NCBI RefSeq assembly: GCF_003865015.1
Contig: NZ_BHVV01000001.1
Coordinates: 558,001 to 622,000 of the forward strand
DNA from: Sulfurisoma sediminicola
GTDB lineage: Bacteria > Pseudomonadota > Gammaproteobacteria > Burkholderiales > Rhodocyclaceae
Length of the DNA: 64,000 nucleotides
Direction of reading: 5' to 3'
The notes under the pieces are model-generated. The model searched no databases. It had not been told where the DNA came from and saw only the letters and a program-made list of their open reading frames with translations. The position numbers were made by a program, and so were the translations under genes. This document shows, in pieces, positions 5,934 through 56,943 of the stretch. The first letter of the stretch is position 1. Each line of letters begins with the position of its first letter.

Positions 5934-7198
5934 CGTCGTCTCCCTGCGGCAATGCTCTTGGCGAACTCGAGGACGGCTTCGAACTGGGCCGCCACCTCGC
6001 CGATATCAAACCTGCGGATGGCCTGGTCCGAGGGCAGGGGCGCCGCCGCCTGGCCGGAACGCCAGCGCTCGAACGCACCGCGCACGGCCAACGCCAGCCC
6101 GACCTCGTCGGCCGGATCCACCGTCGGGAAGCCGAGATCGCCCAGCACCGTCGCCGTGACGCCCACGGTCGGCGTCACGGCAAGAATGGGACGCCGCAGC
6201 ATCAGGTAGTCGACGATCTTGCTGGGAAAGAACACGCTGCGTTCGGCCGGCGCATCGACGACCAGCAGCAGGTCGCTGGCCTGGCCCAGCGCCAGGCTTT
6301 CCAGGTAGGGCACGTTGGGAGCGAGGGAGACGAAATCGCCGATGCCGAGTTGTTCGACCGCCTCGCGCATGCCCGGCGTCGCATGGCCGACGAACTCGAC
6401 CGCCAGGTGCCGCCGGATGTCGCCGTCTGTAGCCAGGGTGGCCAGCGCCCGCAACAACGCGATGGGTTCGCGGTGGCCGTAGATGTTCCCGGTATGGGAG
6501 ATGCGGAACTTGTCCGAGCATGGCGGCGGCGCGACGGCACTCAGCAGTTCCGCATCGAAGCCGTGCCCTACCACGTGCACCTTGTCTCGCCATGCCGCCG
6601 GGTACTTGGCCATCACCAGATCCGCGGTTTCCGTCGTGGTGAAGATCACCGCGTCGGCGGCTTCGATGATCGCGCGCTCGCGCTCGATCGCCTGCTGCCG
6701 CTTGACGGGATCGGGCACGTCGAAATACGGGCTGTCCACCCAGGGATCGCTGAAGTGTGCGACCCATGGCAGGCGCGGAAACTTGCGCTTCAGCTGCAGG
6801 CCGACCACATGATCGATCCATGGCTGGGCGAAGCTGACGAAGACGTCGGGACGCAGCGCCCGCACATCGCGGCGCAGAACGGCCAGGGAGCGGCGAACCC
6901 AGTTGTCGGGAGTGACGGGTTCCTGCGGCGGCCAGTAACGCCAACAGGCCCGGCGCCAAAGCTCGCTCGGCTCCACCTCCTCGCGCGGCTCGACATGCTC
7001 GAGGTCGTAGCTGTCGCGATAGATTTCCGCGAGCCGCGCGTCCTGAGCGGCATATGGTTCCGCCGCCGGGACCACCGTGACCACCCGTGACCGCCAGTCG
7101 CGGCGGTGCAGTGCCCGCAACAGCCGCGAGACCTGCAGCGAGCGCGGGAAGACGAGCGGCGGCATCATCCACGCCAGTGCCAGGAGTTTGCCGCTCAC
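5930..7198 (-). CDS. Glycosyltransferase, GT4-like
   Basis: The 422-residue protein starts at a GTG that overlaps the stop of the upstream amidotransferase by four bases (GTGA). The N-terminal domain contains WMMPPLVFPRSLQVSRLL, a pattern seen in GT4-like enzymes that receive acceptors near the membrane, followed by AHFSDPWVDSPYF. The donor-binding half has HTGNIYGHREP and FFPSKIVDYLMLRRPIL, where PSK-I-DYL takes the place of the classical EX7E loop. An open frame continues upstream to 7735 but is not conserved-looking protein. It likely adds a sugar to the surface glycan; the specificity is unknown. Confidence 0.88.
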   Translation of the reverse strand: MSGKLLALAWMMPPLVFPRSLQVSRLLRALHRRDWRSRVVTVVPAAEPYAAQDARLAEIYRDSYDLEHVEPREEVEPSELWRRACWRYWPPQEPVTPDNWVRRSLAVLRRDVRALRPDVFVSFAQPWIDHVVGLQLKRKFPRLPWVAHFSDPWVDSPYFDVPDPVKRQQAIERERAIIEAADAVIFTTTETADLVMAKYPAAWRDKVHVVGHGFDAELLSAVAPPPCSDKFRISHTGNIYGHREPIALLRALATLATDGDIRRHLAVEFVGHATPGMREAVEQLGIGDFVSLAPNVPYLESLALGQASDLLLVVDAPAERSVFFPSKIVDYLMLRRPILAVTPTVGVTATVLGDLGFPTVDPADEVGLALAVRGAFERWRSGQAAAPLPSDQAIRRFDIGEVAAQFEAVLEFAKSIAAGRRR

Positions 7199-9084
7199 TG
7201 CAGCCACCTCCGCATCCAGATTTCCAGGATCAGCAGGCTCCACAGGCGGTGTCGCGCCACGGACGGCGCATCGGCCGCGGTGCCGGCAGCCACGGCCGCC
7301 GCGACCGCGTCGGGACGCAGCCAGTCCCGGCAACGCGCCGCGGGGTCGAGCAGCATCTCGCCGACCCATCCCTTGAGAGAGCCCGACAGCCAATCGTATA
7401 CCGGTACCGGAAAGCCCTGCTTCGGCCGCGTCACGATCTCCGCCGGCAGGCGCGAGCCCGCATAGCGGCGCAGAATCTCCTTCGTCCGGTACTCGCCGCC
7501 GGGACCCCGACCGGCCTTCAGCCGCGGCGGCAGGCGGGCGGCCCACTCGACCAGGCGGTAGTCGAGGAATGGGGTGCGAAGTTCCAGTGAATTCGCCATC
7601 GACATGCGGTCCGCCTTCATCAGCAGATCTTCCACCAGCCAGTCCTGGCAATAGGAATAAAGCACCTGATTCAACGGCTCCTGCGCCCCCAGCCGGTCGA
7701 GGCTGCGACGAACGCTGTCGAGGCTGTCGGGCCACTCACCCGGCGACAACAACATCCCGCGCTTTTCTGCCGATGACCAGAGATTGGTCATCGAGATCGG
7801 CTCGGGCACCAGGCGTTGATCGGTGACGGTCGCAGCCAAAGCCCGTTCGCGTCGCAATGATGGAGAAAACGGCGATGCCAGGCCCGAGACAAACCCTCGC
7901 ATCCCGCTCGTCGCCACCCTGGCCGCCGCAACCTGATCCCACAACTTCGCCCATCGATCGAAATCGTAACCTGCCAGGATTTCGTCGGCGCCCTCCCCGG
8001 ACAGCACGACCTTGACCTGCTGCCTTGCCAATCGGGAGACATGGTAAAGGGGAAGGGATGCCAGATCGGCGAGCGGTTCGTCCGTATGCCAGACGAAGTC
8101 CGGCAGAAAGTTCAGGAACTCCTTCTCGTCGATCACGACCTCGTGATGCTGGGTCGAGAACTCCTTCGCCACCATTCTGGCGTAAGCCAACTCGTCGGTA
8201 TCCGGCGCATTGGCGAAGGCGACGGAAAAGGTATGCAGCGAGCGTGCTCCGGCCGCGGCGACTACGGCGCTGGAGTCGAGCCCTCCGCTCAAGGTGATGC
8301 CGACGGGCACGTCCGCCTGGAGCCGCAGCCTGACCGCATCCTCGAAGAGGTCGCGAAACTCGTCCTCGTATTCCCGATCGGCCTTCTCGCTCGCCGGCGC
8401 AGACATGGGCATGTCCCACCAACGGCTTACCCTTGGCTCGGCGTCTCCAAGCCTTAACTCGAGGCGATGCGCCGGTGGCAACTTGAAGATGCCGTCCCAT
8501 ATGGTCTGCGGTGCCGGGACATAACGATAGGTCAGGAAATCCCACACCGCCTGCCGATTGACCGATTTCTCGATCCGCCGGGACGCGAGAATGGACTTGA
8601 TTTCCGATCCGAACAACAGTGCATTTCCCACCCGGGCGTAATAGAGCGGCTTGACACCGAGTCGATCGCGAACAAGGTGCAAGACGCCCTGTCGCTTGTC
8701 CCAGATGACGATTGCGAACATGCCGTTCAATCGCGCCAGGCCGTCGATCCCCATGGCCTCGTAGAGCCGGAGAATGACTTCCGTGTCGGAACGCGTACGG
8801 AACTGCAGGCCGCTCCGGGTCAGGTCGTCTCGCAATTCGACATGATTGAAGATTTCGCCGTTGAAACAGATGACGATCCGGCCATCATCGGTGGCCATCG
8901 GCTGATGGCCACTCTCGAGATCGACGATGCTCAGCCGCTGGAAGCCCAGCCCGCAATCGTCATCGGCGTAGAACCCCTGGTCGTCCGGGCCGCGATGGAC
9001 GATCGCGGCGCACATGTCCCTCAACAACGGGACACGCTGTGCGTGTTCAACATCGAGCCGGAACCATCCGGCGAGGCCGCACAC
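7195..9084 (-). CDS. asnB: Asparagine synthase-like glutamine amidotransferase (second of three)
   Basis: This is a full-length 629-residue member. It begins MCGLAGWF with the catalytic Cys2, has the glutaminase motifs RLSIVDLESGHQPM and FNGEIFNH, and carries the PP-loop SGGLDSS near residue 261. SGEGADEILAGY and the C-terminal region RTPFLDYRLVEW are also typical. It shares only the family framework with the first copy, so the paralogues probably act on different acids. It could make asparagine, but three such genes inside one glycan locus argue for amidation of uronic-acid sugars or a peptide-like substituent. It lies 14 bases after the upstream methyltransferase. Confidence 0.94.
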   Translation of the reverse strand: MCGLAGWFRLDVEHAQRVPLLRDMCAAIVHRGPDDQGFYADDDCGLGFQRLSIVDLESGHQPMATDDGRIVICFNGEIFNHVELRDDLTRSGLQFRTRSDTEVILRLYEAMGIDGLARLNGMFAIVIWDKRQGVLHLVRDRLGVKPLYYARVGNALLFGSEIKSILASRRIEKSVNRQAVWDFLTYRYVPAPQTIWDGIFKLPPAHRLELRLGDAEPRVSRWWDMPMSAPASEKADREYEDEFRDLFEDAVRLRLQADVPVGITLSGGLDSSAVVAAAGARSLHTFSVAFANAPDTDELAYARMVAKEFSTQHHEVVIDEKEFLNFLPDFVWHTDEPLADLASLPLYHVSRLARQQVKVVLSGEGADEILAGYDFDRWAKLWDQVAAARVATSGMRGFVSGLASPFSPSLRRERALAATVTDQRLVPEPISMTNLWSSAEKRGMLLSPGEWPDSLDSVRRSLDRLGAQEPLNQVLYSYCQDWLVEDLLMKADRMSMANSLELRTPFLDYRLVEWAARLPPRLKAGRGPGGEYRTKEILRRYAGSRLPAEIVTRPKQGFPVPVYDWLSGSLKGWVGEMLLDPAARCRDWLRPDAVAAAVAAGTAADAPSVARHRLWSLLILEIWMRRWLQ

Positions 9085-9098
9085 CGTCCTTGGTCCGA

Positions 9099-10004
9099 CT
9101 AACTGGAGCGGCGGGCGATCACGTAGTGACTGCTGGCATTCATGGTACGTCGAATGTCTTCAAAGCCGCTCTGCTGAAGCCACAACACGATCTCATAGTA
9201 CGAATACGTGTCGTTGATCGTCGGACTGACCGCATCGAACCAGCCGCCGACATCCTTGCCCTTGAGCTTTTGCAGGTACTCGTATCTCTCCGCAAACGAC
9301 AAATGGCATGTCTCGCGTCGAAGCTGCTCGACCTCTGCGTAGTAGGCGAACTCGCCCGGATCCTTGCCGGTCGGCTCGCCGTAAAGCATGACGAAAATAT
9401 GCCCCCCGGGCTTGACCAGGCGGGAGACGTTCGAGAATGCGCCAAAGGTATTCCCCGTGTGGTGCAGAACACCGTATGACCAGACCAGGTCGAACGTCGG
9501 TTCCAGTTGCAGCGGCTGTGTCAGGTCGTGCTGAAGAACGGTGACTCTTTCTCCATACTCGGCGCAGGCATGCCTGGTATGAAACACGCCGGCCTCGGAC
9601 TGATCCACCGCGCAGACCTCGGCGCCCAGGGAGGCCATCGCCCAGGAAAAACGCCCGGAACCGCACCCGGCGTCCAGAACCCTCTTGCCTGCGAACCAGT
9701 CCGGCGGGAGTTTCGTATATTCGAGAACCAGCCCCGGCTCGCGTTGTTTCAGTTCGGGGCGGGTTTCGATCCAGTTGCCGTCCGGGCTCTCCCGCCACTG
9801 GTAATCGAAGCTCTCCCTCGTCCGGTAGGTGATCGGCAGGCCATTGATGACGTCCGCGCTCAGATATCTGACCAGGGAGCGAAGGCGGCTGACTTCCAGC
9901 GTCAAGTAGTCGACTGAATGCTGCATGTCACGAACGCGATTTTCGACCGCGGGGGACGCGCCATCCTGTCCGACTATCCGCTTGAGGAGGGTCCGAATGC
10001 CCAT
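9099..10004 (-). CDS. Class I SAM-dependent methyltransferase
   Basis: The 301-residue protein has the SAM-binding motif I VLDAGCGSGRFSWAM, an acidic motif II region AVDQSEAG, and the post-motif segment YGVLHHTGNT followed by LVKPGGHIFVMLYGE. The first 70 residues (a basic start, then a possible short coiled coil around NRVRDMQHSVDYL) lie outside the fold. It is one of five methyltransferases in the locus, and methylation of a sugar hydroxyl or a uronic carboxyl is the likely role. The substrate cannot be predicted. It follows the deacetylase gene by 26 bases and precedes the second amidotransferase. Confidence 0.9.
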   Translation of the reverse strand: MGIRTLLKRIVGQDGASPAVENRVRDMQHSVDYLTLEVSRLRSLVRYLSADVINGLPITYRTRESFDYQWRESPDGNWIETRPELKQREPGLVLEYTKLPPDWFAGKRVLDAGCGSGRFSWAMASLGAEVCAVDQSEAGVFHTRHACAEYGERVTVLQHDLTQPLQLEPTFDLVWSYGVLHHTGNTFGAFSNVSRLVKPGGHIFVMLYGEPTGKDPGEFAYYAEVEQLRRETCHLSFAERYEYLQKLKGKDVGGWFDAVSPTINDTYSYYEIVLWLQQSGFEDIRRTMNASSHYVIARRSS

Positions 10005-10030
10005 GGGAAATTCCTTGAGTGAGTAAAGTG

Positions 10031-10933
10031 CTAGTGCCTGCCGGAGACCAATGCAGCCAACTCTGCACCGGCAACCGACGCGACGCCCGACTTCGCCAAC
10101 AACTCCATCGCGCGAATGAATGGCGGCTGATCGAGCACATGGCAGGGATCCGCGTACCAGGTCAGTACCGCGGGGATCTGTCGATCCAGAAACATCTCGA
10201 CGGTTTCCGTCATCAGTTCCAAATACTGATCGCCGAGCGCATAGCTCTTACGATCCGTCAGATACGTCCATGAATCCAGAATGGTTTCCGGGTAACGTGC
10301 CGAACCGAAGCAGGGGACCTCGACCAAGCCATGCGTTTCATAAGCGGGGCCGAACTTCAGCCCGAACGAGGGGATGGTCGTCGAACAATATCGATAACCC
10401 AGACTGGCCGCGGTGCGATGCAGCAGGTCGACCTGCTGCGGCTTCTGGTAACAACCGAAATGCGGGGCCCTGAAGCCCAGTGGCGCACGGCCGATCACCT
10501 CGGTGACGATCTCGTGGCCGCGCCGGATGTCGGCCTCGACCGCCTCTGGCGTCATGGAGTCGTAGAAGGTGATGCCGGCCCACTGGTCCTCGCGCCACTC
10601 CGCGTGGGGCAGGCCGCCATGGTTCATGAATTCCGCGCCCCGCTCGGCCAACCGCCGGTAGGGCGCGGGGGACTTCAGAAGCTGGGCGCCGGGAACGGCA
10701 TATGTCGCCTTGATCCCCAGAGACTCGAGAAAGTCATGAACCTCTTCCGCGGCATCCGCGTCGAGATCGGTATCGCAATCGAACGAGAGGAAGAGGCAGG
10801 GACGCTCCAGGCCGAGCTTCCGCGCCGCAGCCACGTAGTCGTCCAGTGGCTTCAGCGACGGGAACGTCGCCTCGGGCGCCTGACGGCCGCGCAACGGACG
10901 CAGCAGTTGCCGCAGCAGGCTCACCGCACCCAT
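10031..10933 (-). CDS. Polysaccharide deacetylase-like (NodB-type) protein
   Basis: The 300-residue protein shows a variant NodB fold. Motif 1 reads SFDCDTD in place of TFDDG. A histidine pair in NHGGLPHAEW stands where the metal ligands HxxxxH are expected, and GFRAPHFG matches the third, R-x-P-containing motif. It probably removes N- or O-acetyl groups from a sugar. The family variant with CDTD is common in O-antigen and EPS loci. The ATG at 10933 overlaps the previous stop by one base (TGATG); an in-frame start 14 codons upstream exists but lies inside the preceding gene. There is no signal peptide, so action on a cytoplasmic precursor is implied. Confidence 0.85.
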   Translation of the reverse strand: MGAVSLLRQLLRPLRGRQAPEATFPSLKPLDDYVAAARKLGLERPCLFLSFDCDTDLDADAAEEVHDFLESLGIKATYAVPGAQLLKSPAPYRRLAERGAEFMNHGGLPHAEWREDQWAGITFYDSMTPEAVEADIRRGHEIVTEVIGRAPLGFRAPHFGCYQKPQQVDLLHRTAASLGYRYCSTTIPSFGLKFGPAYETHGLVEVPCFGSARYPETILDSWTYLTDRKSYALGDQYLELMTETVEMFLDRQIPAVLTWYADPCHVLDQPPFIRAMELLAKSGVASVAGAELAALVSGRH

Positions 10934-11829
10934 CAGGCCGCCTTGTCCGCAGTGATCCAGAGGCTCCACCCCCACCGGCGGGCCAAAGCCTTGCGCCAGG
11001 ACAGGGGAAGCCGCTGGCCGAGCCGCGGAAACCAGGTATTGAGCGCCTCCGGCACGTCGGTGCCGAAGACCTTGATCGACACGTTTTCACACATCGGGAG
11101 CAGGTCGCGCAGAACCTCCTCGTGCGTGACGGGCCATGTATGCGGGTTGCCTTCCTGGCGCCCGCCATCGCCGTAGCGACTGCCAAGTCCCAGTTCGTCG
11201 AGGAATTCGCGCTCGAGGTTTACGAAACCCTCCTGGTAGGAGATGAAGTACTTGTAAAGCACCGAGTTGCGGTTGTAGAGCATCAGGGCCAGCCGCCCGC
11301 CGGGCTTGAGTACCCGGTACATTTCGCGGGCCGCCTGTTGAATGCCCGGGGTATGGTGAATCACCCCCCAGGAATAGGCGAAGTCGAACGTACCGTCGGC
11401 GAAAGGGAGCGTCTCGGCGTCGACTTCCCGAATGTCGCCCTTGAGGCCGAAGATCCCGAAGCGCCGGGTCGTCTTTTCGATCGCGACCGGATTCAGGTCG
11501 ATGGCGGTGATGTCCGCGCCGTGCGCGGCCCAATGGCCGGCCATGCATCCCATGCCGCAACCGACCTCGAGAACGCGCTTGCCGCGATACTTCTCGAAGT
11601 CGAAGATGCGGCCGAACTTTCCGGTCGCATCGTGCAGCGGCTCGTTCCAGCGATGGAACACCGCGTCGGCAAGCTCGTAGAAGCGGCGCGACCCGATCTC
11701 CACCCGTTCCATGGTGCCATCGTCGAGGCGGTACTCGACGTGGCCGTGATCTTCCGCATAGGTCATCGGCGCGCCGGCCCACCAGTCGCGAATGGCCTTT
11801 TTCTTGTCGGAGGTATTGTTCTCGTGCAT
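10933..11829 (-). CDS. Class I SAM-dependent methyltransferase
   Basis: The 298-residue protein begins MHENNTSDKKKAIRDWW. It has motif I VLEVGCGMGCMAGHW, a motif II region ITAIDLNPVAIE, and WGVIHHTPGIQ followed by VLKPGGRLALMLYNR. Members of this group often sit in O-antigen and capsule clusters. The start at 11829 was preferred to a GTG/ATG frame reaching 12054, because the extra sequence only mirrors the neighbouring gene. The C-terminal 90 residues include a tryptophan-rich end and may bind acceptor. The substrate is unknown. Confidence 0.9.
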   Translation of the reverse strand: MHENNTSDKKKAIRDWWAGAPMTYAEDHGHVEYRLDDGTMERVEIGSRRFYELADAVFHRWNEPLHDATGKFGRIFDFEKYRGKRVLEVGCGMGCMAGHWAAHGADITAIDLNPVAIEKTTRRFGIFGLKGDIREVDAETLPFADGTFDFAYSWGVIHHTPGIQQAAREMYRVLKPGGRLALMLYNRNSVLYKYFISYQEGFVNLEREFLDELGLGSRYGDGGRQEGNPHTWPVTHEEVLRDLLPMCENVSIKVFGTDVPEALNTWFPRLGQRLPLSWRKALARRWGWSLWITADKAA

Positions 11830-11840
11830 AGGATCGGGAC

Positions 11841-12490
11841 TCAGGACTTGCCTCGCATCGCGTCCCACGCGGCCAGAACGGCGGCAACGGGAACGACGGC
11901 CACGGACGCCGCAAGTTCGGGGATTCGGGTTGTCGCCAAAAGGCGGCGCCAGCGCAGCCGGCGTCGCGCCCGGGCGTCGAACGGCTGGATTCTGCGCCGG
12001 CCGTTCAAGAGATATGCGTTGGCCCCTGCGAGCCGCGCTTCCAGCGGCTCCCACCCCAGGCCGAGGGCATCCGGATATACGACGACGACCGCATCCGCAT
12101 CGTCGCAGCCACGAGCCAGATCGTCCGGATCGCGGAGGCTCACGCTGCCGAAGGGCTCAAGCGTCGACCTTGCCGCATCCGTTTCGAATGCCCTGTCGAG
12201 AGCGATCGTCACCTGGGCAGGGGCGGACATGCCGAGAAGCTCGCCTACCAATCCCGCCTGGTATGCCAGCGTTCTCGCGTTGGCAAAAAAGTCCCGATTC
12301 GCCGCGATGAACTGGCGCAGATTCAAGAACATCAGGCGGTCGGCAAGCCTGCCGAGTCTGCCGGACCAAGGTAGCGTCCTGGCCAGCGAAAAAGGTGGCG
12401 GGTTACCGATCCCCCCCGGTAGCTGCAGACGACGATCAGCAGCCGGCCGTCGAGTTTCGGAAAGGTGGAATGAAGCGGTGCTGTCAGCAT
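11841..12490 (-). pseudogene. Small glycan-locus gene of unknown function, split by a frameshift in a 7-base homopolymer
   Basis: Reading from ATG 12490, the first frame (MLTAPLHSTFPKLDG, then LLIVVCSYRGG) ends at a TGA at 12332 after 52 residues. The remaining sequence continues in another frame down to 11841 with a coherent protein: RQFIAANRDFFANARTLAY, VVVVYPDALGLGWEP and a hydrophobic C-terminus. Adding one base in the run of seven C at 12411-12417 (G on the coding strand) joins both parts into about 216 residues. The TGA also overlaps an ATG (TGATG at 12334-12330), so the second part could be made separately as 163 residues. It resembles no family I can name. Possible explanations are a sequencing error, a real mutation, phase variation or reinitiation. 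Confidence 0.6.
12411..12417. repeat. Homopolymer run of seven C (plus strand) at the frame break
   Basis: The run lies inside the coding region of the split gene, at about codon 26. One additional base would restore a single frame. Runs of this kind are classic sites of slipped-strand change and also of assembly error. Confidence 0.9.
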
Positions 12491-12501
12491 GGAATCCGTT
12501 G

Positions 12502-13386
12502 TTATTTCGTGGCAAGCAGATACAGCGAGGATGCCTGGTTGGGAACGAGCGTGCGTCCCAGGATTTCGAAAAGATCATCGACCCACTTGTGTTGACGCCA
12601 CTTTCCGTCGAGGTGCCAGTCGGGGGGACCCCATCCCATGTGCTCGACCTCGAACACGCTGAAGCCGGCCTGCCGCATTTTCTCGCGAATGCTTTCCGCC
12701 GTGTAGAAATGCACGTGGTCAGTCGTCCTCCGGATTTCCGGGGCGCGCCGGTAGGCCAGCTGCCACCACCAGGAACCTTCGTTCGGCGTACCGAGAATCA
12801 GCAGCCCCCCCGGCGCAAGGATGCGATAAGCCGTTGCCAGAGCGGCGCCGTCATCTGGAATGTGCTCGATGACGTGATTGAAAAACACGACGTCGAAACA
12901 GCCGTCGACGGCCGGATAGTCAAGGATATCGGCCAGAAAGAGCGTTGCTTCGGGGGAACGGGCATGCGCCCGCGCCAAACGGACAGGATTGTAATCGCTG
13001 CCGTAAAGGTTCTCGGCAAAGTCCTTCAGCCACAGCAGGTTGGTGCCGTCGCCGCAACCGAGGTCGAGCAAGCGGGGGGCGCGCGCCCGGCCCCGCTGCG
13101 CCAGCTCACGCTTGAGAACGGATGTGACGTAATGGCGCCGCTTCTTCAGATGATGGCGCCAGGGGCTCGCGGCCTCCGGGGGCTGCTCCGTCCGATACCA
13201 GTCGGGATTGACCGCGCGCGCCTGCGCCATCGCCCCCTCGTGCGCGGCCAGATCAGCCACCAGAAGCGGAACGCCGCCCTCCATTGGAAAGGTCTTGCCG
13301 CACGCGCCACACGACAGCGTGCCCGGCATGGCGACGAGCGGCGCCGAATGGCACGCCGGGCAGCGGAATATCGTCGGATCCGTCAT
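12502..13386 (-). CDS. Methyltransferase with N-terminal zinc-ribbon-like domain
   Basis: The 294-residue protein begins with a Trm112-like four-cysteine module (CPACHSAPL and CGACGKTF) in the first 35 residues. The SAM-dependent methyltransferase fold follows, with motif I LLDLGCGDGTNLLW, a GSDYNPVRL region and NHVIEHIPDDG. The start ATG at 13386 overlaps the stop of the upstream glycosyltransferase (13383) as ATGA. The C-terminal part has FSVFEVEHMGWGPPDW. This architecture is common among polysaccharide methyltransferases. The target sugar is not known. Confidence 0.9.
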   Translation of the reverse strand: MTDPTIFRCPACHSAPLVAMPGTLSCGACGKTFPMEGGVPLLVADLAAHEGAMAQARAVNPDWYRTEQPPEAASPWRHHLKKRRHYVTSVLKRELAQRGRARAPRLLDLGCGDGTNLLWLKDFAENLYGSDYNPVRLARAHARSPEATLFLADILDYPAVDGCFDVVFFNHVIEHIPDDGAALATAYRILAPGGLLILGTPNEGSWWWQLAYRRAPEIRRTTDHVHFYTAESIREKMRQAGFSVFEVEHMGWGPPDWHLDGKWRQHKWVDDLFEILGRTLVPNQASSLYLLATK

Positions 13387-14555
13387 GGGCGACGCCCCAG
13401 GAAGGACCGATAGATCGCGGCATATTTCGCTTCGGTGACCTCCGGAGCCCAATTCGCCCGCGCATGGGCCAACGCCCGCTGCCCCAGCTCGCCGCGCGCG
13501 GCGTCGTCATGCAGGAGGTGATGCAACGCCGCGAAATATTCCTCCTCGGTGTTATCGACCTTCACGGCGAAGTCACCCTCAAGCTCCGGAACAGGCTCGC
13601 CGATCCGCTTGTTGATAACCAAGGGCAGGCCGGTCAGCAGGGCCTCGAGCACGGACTTGCTGATTTCCCAATATTCGGTGTGCACGGCGAAGATGTCCTG
13701 TTCCGCCAACAATTCGCACAACTCGTCGTTGGCGACCGCCGGCCGAAAAATCACCCGATCCGAAATTCCCAGATCGATCGCCTGTTGCTCCAGACGCGGC
13801 CTGATCGGACCGTCGCCGACGATGGTCAACTCGGCGTCCGGCAACCTCACAAGGGCGCGCATGATGTTTTCCGGATTCTTCTCCTCGAGCAATCGCCCGA
13901 CATAGACGATGCGCGCCGGTTGGTGAAGCCGGTAATCGGCTTTCTTCTTCAGGTGCAGCCCGTTCAGTACGTTGTAGCAAACCTCGACGCGAGCCACGCC
14001 CAGGCGCTTCAGGTAGGGCAGGATAGGACGATAGACGGGCATCACGAGGTCGGCATTGCGCAAACCCGTGGCCTCGAGATGCTCGTAGAACCGGTTATGC
14101 CTCGCCTCGGCTGCACTCAGCTGAGGCTTGAGATAGCGGCGCACGGGATTGACATCCGCGTTGATATGCAGGCTGACGACGTAGGGGATACCCAGTTCCG
14201 CCCTGATGCGGCTGGCGAGGTAGGTATTCCAGTCGGCGCCGTGGCAGCGCATCAAGTCGGGCCGGATGCGTCTGGCGATGTCCACACCCCCGCGCGCCCA
14301 ACGCCGCAAGCGCCATTCCGTCATCCATTCCGGGCGACGTCCGACCAGATTGAGGTCGTCCGGATAGTTGTGCAGGGTCAGCGCCGCGCCGCCCACCAGA
14401 TACTTCAACGCCTCCGGGTCCGGTCGGTCATCGTTGCACATCAGAATATGCACATCGTCGAAGACGCGGCCGGGGTTGTAATAGTCCGGCTGCAATTCTC
14501 CCTTGGCGATGATGTCCGACAGGCGATCGGGAATTACGACGAGAAGGCGTGGCAC
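13383..14555 (-). CDS. GT4-family glycosyltransferase
   Basis: The 390-residue protein starts at GTG 14555 (PRLLVVIPDRLSDI). The N-terminal domain includes PDLMRCHGADWNTYLASR and VSLHINADVNPVRR. The donor domain has VYVGRLLEEKNPENIMRAL, TIVGDGPIRPRLE and the acidic loop EYWEISKSVLEALLTG. This is the first gene of the minus-strand block that ends at the amidotransferase at base 1, and a candidate promoter lies just upstream, facing the sulfotransferase gene. It transfers one sugar to the glycan; the specificity is unknown. Confidence 0.9.
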   Translation of the reverse strand: MPRLLVVIPDRLSDIIAKGELQPDYYNPGRVFDDVHILMCNDDRPDPEALKYLVGGAALTLHNYPDDLNLVGRRPEWMTEWRLRRWARGGVDIARRIRPDLMRCHGADWNTYLASRIRAELGIPYVVSLHINADVNPVRRYLKPQLSAAEARHNRFYEHLEATGLRNADLVMPVYRPILPYLKRLGVARVEVCYNVLNGLHLKKKADYRLHQPARIVYVGRLLEEKNPENIMRALVRLPDAELTIVGDGPIRPRLEQQAIDLGISDRVIFRPAVANDELCELLAEQDIFAVHTEYWEISKSVLEALLTGLPLVINKRIGEPVPELEGDFAVKVDNTEEEYFAALHHLLHDDAARGELGQRALAHARANWAPEVTEAKYAAIYRSFLGRRP

Positions 14556-29094: not shown

Positions 29095-30353
29095 GCCGCC
29101 GCCTCTACACCCTGGCACTGTGGCTGCTGCTGCCCTGGGGCCTGCTGCACCTGCTCTGGCGCGCGCGGCGGCAGCCGGACTATCTCCGCCACTGGGGCGA
29201 GCGCTTCGGCTTCCATGCCGCCGCACCCATCGCGCCGCTGATCTGGATCCACGCCGTCTCGGTCGGCGAAACGCGGGCGGCCCAGCCGCTGGTCACCGAG
29301 CTCAAGGAACGCTACCCGGGCCATCGCATCCTGCTCACCCACATGACGCCGACGGGCCGGCAGACATCGGAAGCGTTGTTCGGCGACGGCGTCGATCGCA
29401 TCTACCTGCCCTACGACTATCCCTTTGCCGTGCGCCGCTTCCTCGACCATTTCCGGCCGCGCATCGGCCTGATCATGGAAACCGAGCTATGGCCCAACCT
29501 CATCGCCGCCTGCAAGGCGCGCGGCGTGCCTCTGGCACTGGTCAATGCGCGGCTGTCGGAGAAATCGGCGCGCGGCTACGCGCGCTTTCCCCGCCTCGCG
29601 CGCGAAGCGCTCGGGAATCTCGCCGCGATCTCCGCGCAGGGCGAGGCCGACGCCGCGCGCCTGAGCGGCCTCGGCGCGCCGCGGGTCGAAGTTTTCGGCA
29701 ACATCAAGTTCGATATCGCTCCACCCGCCGATCAACTGGCCAAGGGCGAGGATTTCCGGCGGCGCATCGGGCAACGCAAGGTGTTCCTCGCCGCCAGCAC
29801 GCGCGAGGGGGAGGAAGCGCTGATCCTCGACGCGTGGCGACAGGCTGCTGCCGATGCGACGGCGCTGCTCGTCATCGTGCCGCGCCACCCGCAACGCTTC
29901 GACGAAGTCGCGGCGCTGGTCGCTTCCCGCGGCCTGCGCCTGCAACGGCGCTCCGACGAGGTGGCGGTCGGCGCGGACACGCAGGTCTGGCTCGGCGACA
30001 GCATGGGCGAGATGTTCCCCTACTATGCGGCGGCCGACGTCGCCTTCGTCGGCGGCAGCCTGCTGCCCTATGGTAGCCAGAACCTGATCGAGGCCGCGGC
30101 ATGCGGCACGCCGGTGCTGCTCGGACCCTCGACCTACAATTTCGCCGAGGCGGCGCGGGGCGCCATCGCCTGCGGTGCGGTGCGGCAGTGCGAAACGGCT
30201 GAAGAAATCGCGGCGGCAGCGGCCGGGCTGCTGGAAAACGCCGGGGAAAGCCGGCGCATGCGCGAAGCGGGGCTGGCCTTCGTCGCGCGCCACCGCGGCG
30301 CGACGCAGCGCACACTGGCGCTGATCGAGAAGCTTAATCCAGCAGGGCGTTGA
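29091..30353 (+). CDS. waaA: 3-deoxy-D-manno-octulosonic acid (Kdo) transferase
   Basis: The 420-residue protein has an N-terminal membrane anchor (YTLALWLLLPWGLLHLLW) and the signature HAVSVGETRAAQPL. THMTPTGRQT, METELWPNL and NARLSEKSARGY follow, then VGGSLLPYGSQNLIEAAACG in the donor domain. It adds Kdo to lipid A. The predicted start ATG 29091 shares four bases with the waaC stop. Its 3' end overlaps the convergent tolC-type gene by 20 bases (30334-30353), which could allow antisense interference. The order waaC-waaA is consistent with betaproteobacteria. Confidence 0.96.
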   Translation: MSRRLYTLALWLLLPWGLLHLLWRARRQPDYLRHWGERFGFHAAAPIAPLIWIHAVSVGETRAAQPLVTELKERYPGHRILLTHMTPTGRQTSEALFGDGVDRIYLPYDYPFAVRRFLDHFRPRIGLIMETELWPNLIAACKARGVPLALVNARLSEKSARGYARFPRLAREALGNLAAISAQGEADAARLSGLGAPRVEVFGNIKFDIAPPADQLAKGEDFRRRIGQRKVFLAASTREGEEALILDAWRQAAADATALLVIVPRHPQRFDEVAALVASRGLRLQRRSDEVAVGADTQVWLGDSMGEMFPYYAAADVAFVGGSLLPYGSQNLIEAAACGTPVLLGPSTYNFAEAARGAIACGAVRQCETAEEIAAAAAGLLENAGESRRMREAGLAFVARHRGATQRTLALIEKLNPAGR

Positions 30354-31686
30354 TCGCCGCCACGTCCTCATCGGACAGGGTGCCGGCGGCGCTCTTGAGC
30401 TTGAGCAGCGCGGTCAAGGTGTCGAGCCGCGCCTTGGCGAGTTTCTGCCGGGTGTCGAAGAGCTGGCTCTGGGCGTTGAGGACGTCGATGTTGATGCGCA
30501 CGCCGACCTCGTAGCCGAGCTTGTTCGAGTCCAGTGCCGACTGCGACGACACCAGCGCCGCCTCGTAGGCATTCACCTGGGAGAGGCCGGAGGTCACGCC
30601 GAGATAGGACTGCCGTGCCGCCAGCGCCGACTGGCGGCGGGCGTTGTCGAGGTCGGCCAGCGCCTTTTCGCGTAGGGCCACGGCCTCGCGGTCCTTGGAA
30701 ACGACATAGCCGCCTGCGAAGATGGGCAAGGACAGCTGCAGGCCGACGGTGCTCCTGTCGGTGTCGTAGCCGAAGCCGAGGGTGGCGCTTTGCTGGGTGG
30801 CCGAGTCGCGGCCGCGCGTCGCCACCACATCGAGCGTCGGATAGTGGCCGGCGCGCTGTTTCGAGACTTCCTTGTCGGCGATCTCGAGGCCGAGCTGGCC
30901 GAGCTGGACGTTGAGCCCTCCCTGCTCCGCCGACTCGACCCACTTGCCGATGTCGTTGGGCTGCGGCGGCGACAGTTTGACGCCGCTTCTCAACGTCTTG
31001 AGGTTTTCGTATTCCTTGCCGACCACCGCGCGCAGGGCCTGGCGCTTGACGACGAGATCGCTCTGCGCGGCGATTTCCTGCGCGGTGGCGAGGTCGAAGC
31101 GCGCCTGCGCCTCGTGGGTGTCGGTGATGGTGGCGGTGCCGACCTCGAAGTTGCGCTTGGCCGACTCGAGTTGCTCGGCGATCGCCGTCCGCTGCGCCTC
31201 GGTGGTGGCGACGGCCTCCTGCGCCAGCAGCACATCGAAGTAGGCCTGGGCCACGCGCACGATGAGGTCCTGGCGGGCCAGGCCGAACTGCACGCCGGCC
31301 TGGGCGGCGCCGAGTTCGCCCTGACGGTAGGCCATGAAGTTCTGCCAGCGGAAGATCGGCTGCGTCAGTTGCACCAGCCAGCGATTGCTGTTGTAGTTGG
31401 CGCTGACGGTGATGTTGCCGCCGCCGCGGCGCGTCGAGTCCTCCTCGTTCCAGGTCGTGTTGGCGGTCAAGCCGATGGTCGGCAGCAAGCCGGCCAACCC
31501 CTGCGATTCCCTTTCCTTGCCGGCGGCGAGGCTGGCCCTGGCCGCAGCGAACTGGGCGTCGTAGGCGAGCGCCTCGCGATAGACGGTCAGCAGATCGTTG
31601 GCCCGGACCGGGCCCGCATGCAGGGTGGCCCCTGCACCGAAGGCGGCGGCAATCAGGATGGAAAGGAGGGCCGGTGTCTTCTTCAT
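30334..31686 (-). CDS. TolC-family outer-membrane channel protein
   Basis: The 450-residue protein has a signal peptide (MKKTPALLSILIAAAFGAGA, then cleavage after the VRA region). Two similar repeats of about 200 residues follow, each rich in coiled-coil helix and strand: LTQPIFRWQNFMAYRQGE in the first, LSLPIFAGGYVV in the second. TolC proteins form the trimeric outer-membrane exit duct for RND and other tripartite pumps. It stands at the end of the operon with the adaptor, pump, pcm and rhodanese, 11 bases after the rhodanese. It may serve both RND systems of this window, which otherwise have no outer-membrane partner nearby. Confidence 0.94.
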   Translation of the reverse strand: MKKTPALLSILIAAAFGAGATLHAGPVRANDLLTVYREALAYDAQFAAARASLAAGKERESQGLAGLLPTIGLTANTTWNEEDSTRRGGGNITVSANYNSNRWLVQLTQPIFRWQNFMAYRQGELGAAQAGVQFGLARQDLIVRVAQAYFDVLLAQEAVATTEAQRTAIAEQLESAKRNFEVGTATITDTHEAQARFDLATAQEIAAQSDLVVKRQALRAVVGKEYENLKTLRSGVKLSPPQPNDIGKWVESAEQGGLNVQLGQLGLEIADKEVSKQRAGHYPTLDVVATRGRDSATQQSATLGFGYDTDRSTVGLQLSLPIFAGGYVVSKDREAVALREKALADLDNARRQSALAARQSYLGVTSGLSQVNAYEAALVSSQSALDSNKLGYEVGVRINIDVLNAQSQLFDTRQKLAKARLDTLTALLKLKSAAGTLSDEDVAAINALLD

Positions 31687-56178: not shown

Positions 56179-56943
56179 CTCCAGACTGCGCGGCTTGCGC
56201 GCCGCCCGGGCGAACAGCGCATCGAACAGCGCATTGGGCAGCAGCCGCAGCAGCTTGGCGACGATCGCCATCTGCCAGGGGATCACCGCGTAGCTCGTTC
56301 CCGCATCGATGGCACGGGCGAAGCGGCGCGCCGCCACATCGGCCGGCAACAGGAAGGGCATGGCGTAGGGATTGACGGCGGTCATCGGCGTTGCGATGTA
56401 GCCGGGGGCGAGGGTGACGACCTTGACGCCGCTGCCGCGCAACTCGACGCGCAGGCTCTCGAGATAGGATATCGCCGCCGCCTTCGACGCCGAGTAGGCG
56501 CCGGCGCCGGGCAGGCCGCGAATGCCGGCGACCGAGCCGATGCCGACCAGCCGCCCGGCCCCCGCCTGCTTCATCGCTTCGAGGAAGGGATGGAAGGTGT
56601 GCACCATGCCAAGCACGTTGGTCTCGAACACCTTGCGGAAGGCCGGGATGTCCTCGCGCTCGCCGGTCAGGGTGCCCACCGAGATGCCGGCATTGGCGAT
56701 GACGATGTCGGGGATGCCGGCACGGGCGATGAAGTCCTGCCCGGCGGCAAGCAGCGCGCCGGCATCGGCAACGTCGGCGACATAGAGGTGATGGGTGCCC
56801 GGCAGCTCGCGGGCCAGCGCGTTGAGCAACTCCTCGCGCCGCGCCACGAGTCCGAGCGTGGCGCCGCGGGCGGCGTAGTGGCGCGCCAGCGCGGCGCCGA
56901 TGCCCGACGAGGCGCCCGTCAAAAAGACGCGCTCGCCGGCCAA
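56173..56943 (-). CDS. Short-chain dehydrogenase/reductase
   Basis: The 256-residue protein has the cofactor motif TGASSGIGAALARHY and the IANAG segment. GSVAGIRGLPGAGAYSASKAAA contains the catalytic YxxxK. A tail of about 40 hydrophobic residues (PWQMAIVAKLLRLLPNALFDALF) may bind membrane. The start is TTG 56943, four bases after the dsbA stop; no ATG fits. It is probably NAD(P)H-linked. The substrate is unknown. It closes the argS-SPOR-dsbA operon. Confidence 0.88.
   Translation of the reverse strand: MAGERVFLTGASSGIGAALARHYAARGATLGLVARREELLNALARELPGTHHLYVADVADAGALLAAGQDFIARAGIPDIVIANAGISVGTLTGEREDIPAFRKVFETNVLGMVHTFHPFLEAMKQAGAGRLVGIGSVAGIRGLPGAGAYSASKAAAISYLESLRVELRGSGVKVVTLAPGYIATPMTAVNPYAMPFLLPADVAARRFARAIDAGTSYAVIPWQMAIVAKLLRLLPNALFDALFARAARKPRSLEL

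Follow-up and report, generated by a model that had tools for sequence, protein, structure and literature searches.

The 64,000-nucleotide stretch of Sulfurisoma sediminicola DNA analyzed here (the window) carries, on its minus strand, a glycan cassette with genes for a glycosyltransferase (13383..14555), a methyltransferase (12502..13452), a further methyltransferase (10933..11829), a polysaccharide-deacetylase-type protein (10031..10975) and an asparagine-synthase-type protein (7195..9084). Between the two methyltransferase genes lies a gene that is split at a run of seven G residues (C7 on the plus strand, 12411..12417). Its upstream frame (12332..12490, minus strand) begins with an ATG at 12490 and extends for 52 codons to a TGA at 12334-12332; codons 1-24 match a homologue, and the remainder are out of frame. 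The downstream frame (11841..12410, minus strand; 189 codons and a stop) stays open, with no further damage, until the stop at 11843-11841. The TGA overlaps an ATG (12332-12330) that is in the downstream frame and from which a putative restart frame of 163 codons can be read (11841..12332, minus strand). The preliminary description had reported a single gene split by a seven-base run, with 52 residues leading to a TGA, the rest in another frame and a TGATG overlap; both the split and the overlap were confirmed on the minus strand. Frame arithmetic gives an offset at the run of one missing base or two extra ones, and the gene read across the break encodes 216 residues.

The nearest homologue, at locus L113, is uninterrupted and also 216 residues long, so the earlier proposal that one added base restores a 216-residue protein was borne out and the whole homologue for which a search had been suggested was found. 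The window sequence departs from the L113 frame exactly at the G7 run, with 62% identity over the 24 upstream codons and 54% over the downstream piece. Because both pieces match this one homologue, comparison at the sequence level indicates that the split gene is a real gene, that both pieces belong to it with the frame changing at the run, and that the break is more than chance, the pieces lying on either side of the run. In L113 the Arg-Gly-Gly at the break site is encoded without a homopolymer, and neither there nor in L112 and L115 is there a run of at least five bases at the site. In L003, a more distant homologue, the break site carries a G6 that is in frame; close to their starts, L116 has an in-frame G6 and a C7, and L110 a C6. 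The L003 and L116 genes are whole despite their runs. The runs in L003, L116 and L110 lend slight support to the idea of a recurring run, although codons rich in G and C produce such runs anyway.

The L113 locus has the same nine-gene order as the window: glycosyltransferase, methyltransferase, split-gene homologue, methyltransferase, deacetylase, methyltransferase, asparagine-synthase type, glycosyltransferase and epimerase. In 17 of 17 loci examined (L003, L108-L110 and L112-L124, with two pairs of loci sharing the same protein) the downstream methyltransferase gene adjoins the split gene or its homologue. A scan of named genomes for homologues gave 13 loci, with labels that include Acidobacteriota, Sphingomonadales, Oxalobacteraceae, Pseudorhodoplanes, Thiobacillaceae, Rhodocyclaceae, Holospora and Odyssella, among others. 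The class-level search matched 2 of 369 genomes (the genome itself and one relative at E 1e-19), and a sample of the phylum matched 4 of 398, the genome itself and three further relatives. Of 61 near genomes one carries the split gene, and of 41 one carries the neighboring methyltransferase at E 1e-40; in each case it is the genome itself. On this distribution the glycan cassette is accessory. A search of plasmids returned no match, and PADLOC, run on three proteins, gave no hit. A match at L002 (E 4e-4, inside a frame of 1498 codons) was taken for chance. The DNA of L113 and L114 is identical over the 2 kb that was compared (9001-11000), and the two come from metagenome-assembled genomes labelled Sphingomonadales and Oxalobacteraceae; this identity under different class labels suggests that one of the two was misbinned.

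The restored protein appears to be a normal member of an uncharacterized glycan-cassette family with the motifs YPD[AS][IL]G and NGRxR. Seventeen columns are invariant across 15 aligned rows, the window piece included, and the methyltransferase neighbor is present. Members have a long C-terminal helix and a small predicted alpha/beta fold. Neither piece of the split gene matched Pfam or NCBIfam, and a Pfam scan of 15 family members gave two weak matches only, in one member each (E 0.043 and 0.2). Foldseek found no match to the predicted fold at E 0.001; in a second look at structures the best matches reached Z 8.2 (105 residues, 3.2 A) and 8.0 (103 residues, 2.8 A), which is the level of common arrangements and not a confident relationship. 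Searching solved structures by sequence gave a single weak match for each profile, one of them a designed protein (E 0.0027) and the other at E 0.35. The constant gene company of the family would fit a part in the synthesis or modification of the cassette glycan, and a family that extends from Acidobacteriota to Holospora with neither a Pfam nor an NCBIfam entry represents a real annotation gap.

Runs of this kind are not enriched in the window. It contains two exact G/C7 runs, where about 7.9 would be expected under a first-order Markov model, and since runs do not exceed chance expectation we did not count a run as evidence in itself. The second C7 run (12805..12811, minus-strand gene) lies inside the whole methyltransferase gene next to the split gene and serves as an internal control; that gene has an uninterrupted frame and aligns with L113 along its full length. 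Across the whole 3.0 Mb genome there are 82 exact G/C7 runs (about 1.75 per 64 kb), together with 14 distinct runs of greater length. The genome's ratio of exact 8-runs to 7-runs is 9/82, whereas three genus-mates together give 103/267 (p 2e-4; p 0.04 against G001 alone); it is the third lowest of 31 genomes, two being lower. No G/C run in the genome is longer than an intergenic G14 (L013:1501-1514; G000 contig C4, 68694-68707), flanked by what we take to be hemerythrin-like and htpG-like genes, and if length variation is sought this G14 would be a stronger candidate than the G7 site in the glycan gene.

Other genes of the same assembly also appear out of frame at runs. We scored the gain from a frame shift at each run with a codon-based gene model, retrained on fetched loci, and flagged gains above 13. 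The sites were 96 distinct G/C runs of at least 7 in the genome itself and 85 sampled in three order-mates, whose exact 7-runs were taken in listed order (G039, 40 of 77; G045, 20 of 274; G043, 20 of 25). Five of the 96 exceeded the threshold (L094, 58.3; L072, 35.6; L007, 29.5; L073, 22.9; L069, 14.7), all with breaks at about 1501-1508 and G/C runs of 7-8; three of the five lie in the coding path of the model. None of the 85 order-mate sites did so (highest 11.9), a difference with a Fisher p of 0.06, and G043, which was sampled and has one of the lower 8:7 ratios, likewise had no site over 13. Control deletions scored above 13 in 32 of 45 cases in the genome itself and 33 of 59 in the order-mates. 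In the retrained null, 7 of 495 random coding positions off runs exceeded 13: four in L051, two in L064 and one beside the L094 break. When trained on the window the model had flagged 6 of 96 run sites, among them L009, which fell to 5.8 after retraining. Six of 288 random positions in the window also passed, lying in two areas, 29888-30788 and 56372-56491. The frames suggest that these null peaks are artefacts of the gene model, presumably arising from an opposite-strand gene and a whole dehydrogenase-like gene; the one at 30788 is not separately explained. A scan of about 206 kb gave model peaks away from runs too, including L031, L037, L067, L073 at 912, L080 and L090. As frame breaks we rejected the peaks at L051, L057 and L077, which look like opposite-strand overlaps, and L099 (10.3), where by reading of the sequence two genes overlap; a codon score computed for each side over 150 bases was discarded as too noisy. 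The G7 site in the glycan gene is not flagged (0.0 after retraining, 4.9 before) because its upstream piece is short, and there homology is the proof.

Domain matches and genus-mates support several of the flagged breaks. Both pieces of L072 match Isochorismatase in Pfam; the upstream piece of L094 matches Formyl_trans_N and the start of Formyl_trans_C, ending inside the latter; the downstream pieces of L007 and L069 match CheW-like and HupE/UreJ domains, respectively. We take the L094 formyltransferase to be of ArnA type and the L007 CheW gene to be PilI. Genus-mates were compared at two of the five flagged sites, L094 and L007, and in 3 of 3 mates each gene reads across the site: for L094 two mates are without the run and one has a longer one, and for L007 all are without it. 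In the formyltransferase gene the mate with the longer run (L127, G002) has an in-frame C8, the genome itself has a C7 and the two other mates are runless. At the seven sites where both frames were read, the G7 site included, frame arithmetic makes six one base short and one long.

The explanation that we tentatively place first, with a chance that falls just short of even, is a one-base run-length error in the consensus of this genome at G7. The glycan gene would then be normal, the consensus would have miscounted a G/C stretch by one base, and the DNA of the organism itself would be in frame at the site. In favor of such an error are the position of the break exactly at the run in a gene that is otherwise open and whole in the nearest homologue, and the other genes of the assembly that are out of frame at runs, two of which (L094 and L007) are whole in genus-mates. 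The preponderance of sites that are one base short, the scarcity of exact 8-runs relative to 7-runs and a whole MutS also count for it. Against it, the comparison of run sites with order-mates has a p of 0.06, the gene model flags some random positions off runs but not the G7 site itself, two genomes have lower 8:7 ratios, and the G14 run indicates that long runs are not always shortened; moreover, genuine frameshifts at several sites would give the same picture as run-length errors. We consider a genetic on/off switch somewhat less likely than the run-length error. The preliminary description had offered a contingency gene, a mutation and a sequencing error; all three are kept, and we would tentatively rank them as error, true frameshift and contingency switch. 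If the error reading is right, several genes that the genome seems to have lost are in fact present, and the supposed switch does not belong in phase-variation catalogues.

A recent true frameshift in this strain, arising at the G stretch through slippage in replication or a small deletion and with no evolved switching, is an unlikely but serious competitor. The glycan gene has a single break and no other damage, its cassette is accessory and loss may thus be tolerated, and G/C runs are described as hot spots (PMC1891110). On the other hand, runs in this assembly also break other genes, some of them with conserved functions, and MutS, the mismatch-repair gene that was examined, is whole in this genome, which speaks against a simple mutator.

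The preliminary description was headed by an on/off switch, that is, a contingency gene in which the G7 run slips reversibly in the population and toggles a glycan step. We find this improbable. The setting is a surface glycan, the run lies near the 5′ end, the gene changes frame at a simple internal run, and L003 and L116 hold their in-frame runs in whole genes; some surveys, moreover, accept runs of 6, the cut-off given in a Neisseria survey (PMC5084427) and the length of the C6 in bvgS that is called phase-variable in Bordetella (PMC1891110). The run is short, however, and belongs to a class below chance in the window, and in relatives, whose run lengths had been proposed earlier as a check, the picture is mixed: the nearest homologue and two others have no run of five or more at the site, L003 has a G6. 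In the Bordetella account, C/G tracts were in excess of chance when longer than 8, and a single G8 tract appeared stable (PMC1891110). Were the switch real, a glycan step common to distant bacteria would be under chance control. Extending the idea to a multi-gene contingency set, in which G/C runs of 7-8, shorter than usually credited, act as switches, is more doubtful still: the glycan gene, the formyltransferase, the CheW-type gene and others would all have been off in the sampled line, and G6-G7 at one site in two distant homologues would be the evolutionary seed. The names in such a set would presumably be a lipid-A-type formyltransferase and a CheW-type pilus-control gene.

Two further explanations leave the break in place. 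Reinitiation at the TGATG, raised in the preliminary description, would yield a shorter working protein and make the break matter little; it stands on paper, since 17 of 17 invariant columns lie downstream of the ATG, whole homologues of 147 residues exist and the codon model picks the overlapping ATG as a start, but the 163-residue product would lose the predicted first strand of the fold (L113 residues 14-21; model mean pLDDT 83.3), which by reading of the alignment is kept in 14 of 14 locus-derived rows, and we regard this route as very improbable. Least probable of all is that programmed -1 ribosomal frameshifting or transcriptional slippage joins the frames: the direction fits, and the G run plus the next base forms an in-phase heptamer, which we take to be an X XXY YYZ motif, but there is no unusual structure downstream of the run (z -1.19) and the heptamer is absent in L113.

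Each of the leading readings resembles a known system in part. As in the G/C phase variation described for Bordetella (PMC1891110), a coding G/C run would toggle the frame of a gene with a surface function; unlike there, the run is 7, is not over-represented, is absent in L113 and is known from a consensus. The position near the 5′ end of the gene recalls the homopolymeric tracts reported at 5′ ends (PMC2831843), although poly(A) and poly(T) are the subject there. The errors reported for long-read assemblies are mainly homopolymer indels, which fragment genes (PMC12007338). The case here differs in that a G14 run survives, and it is alike in its one-base breaks, mostly short by one, at runs in genes that are otherwise whole.
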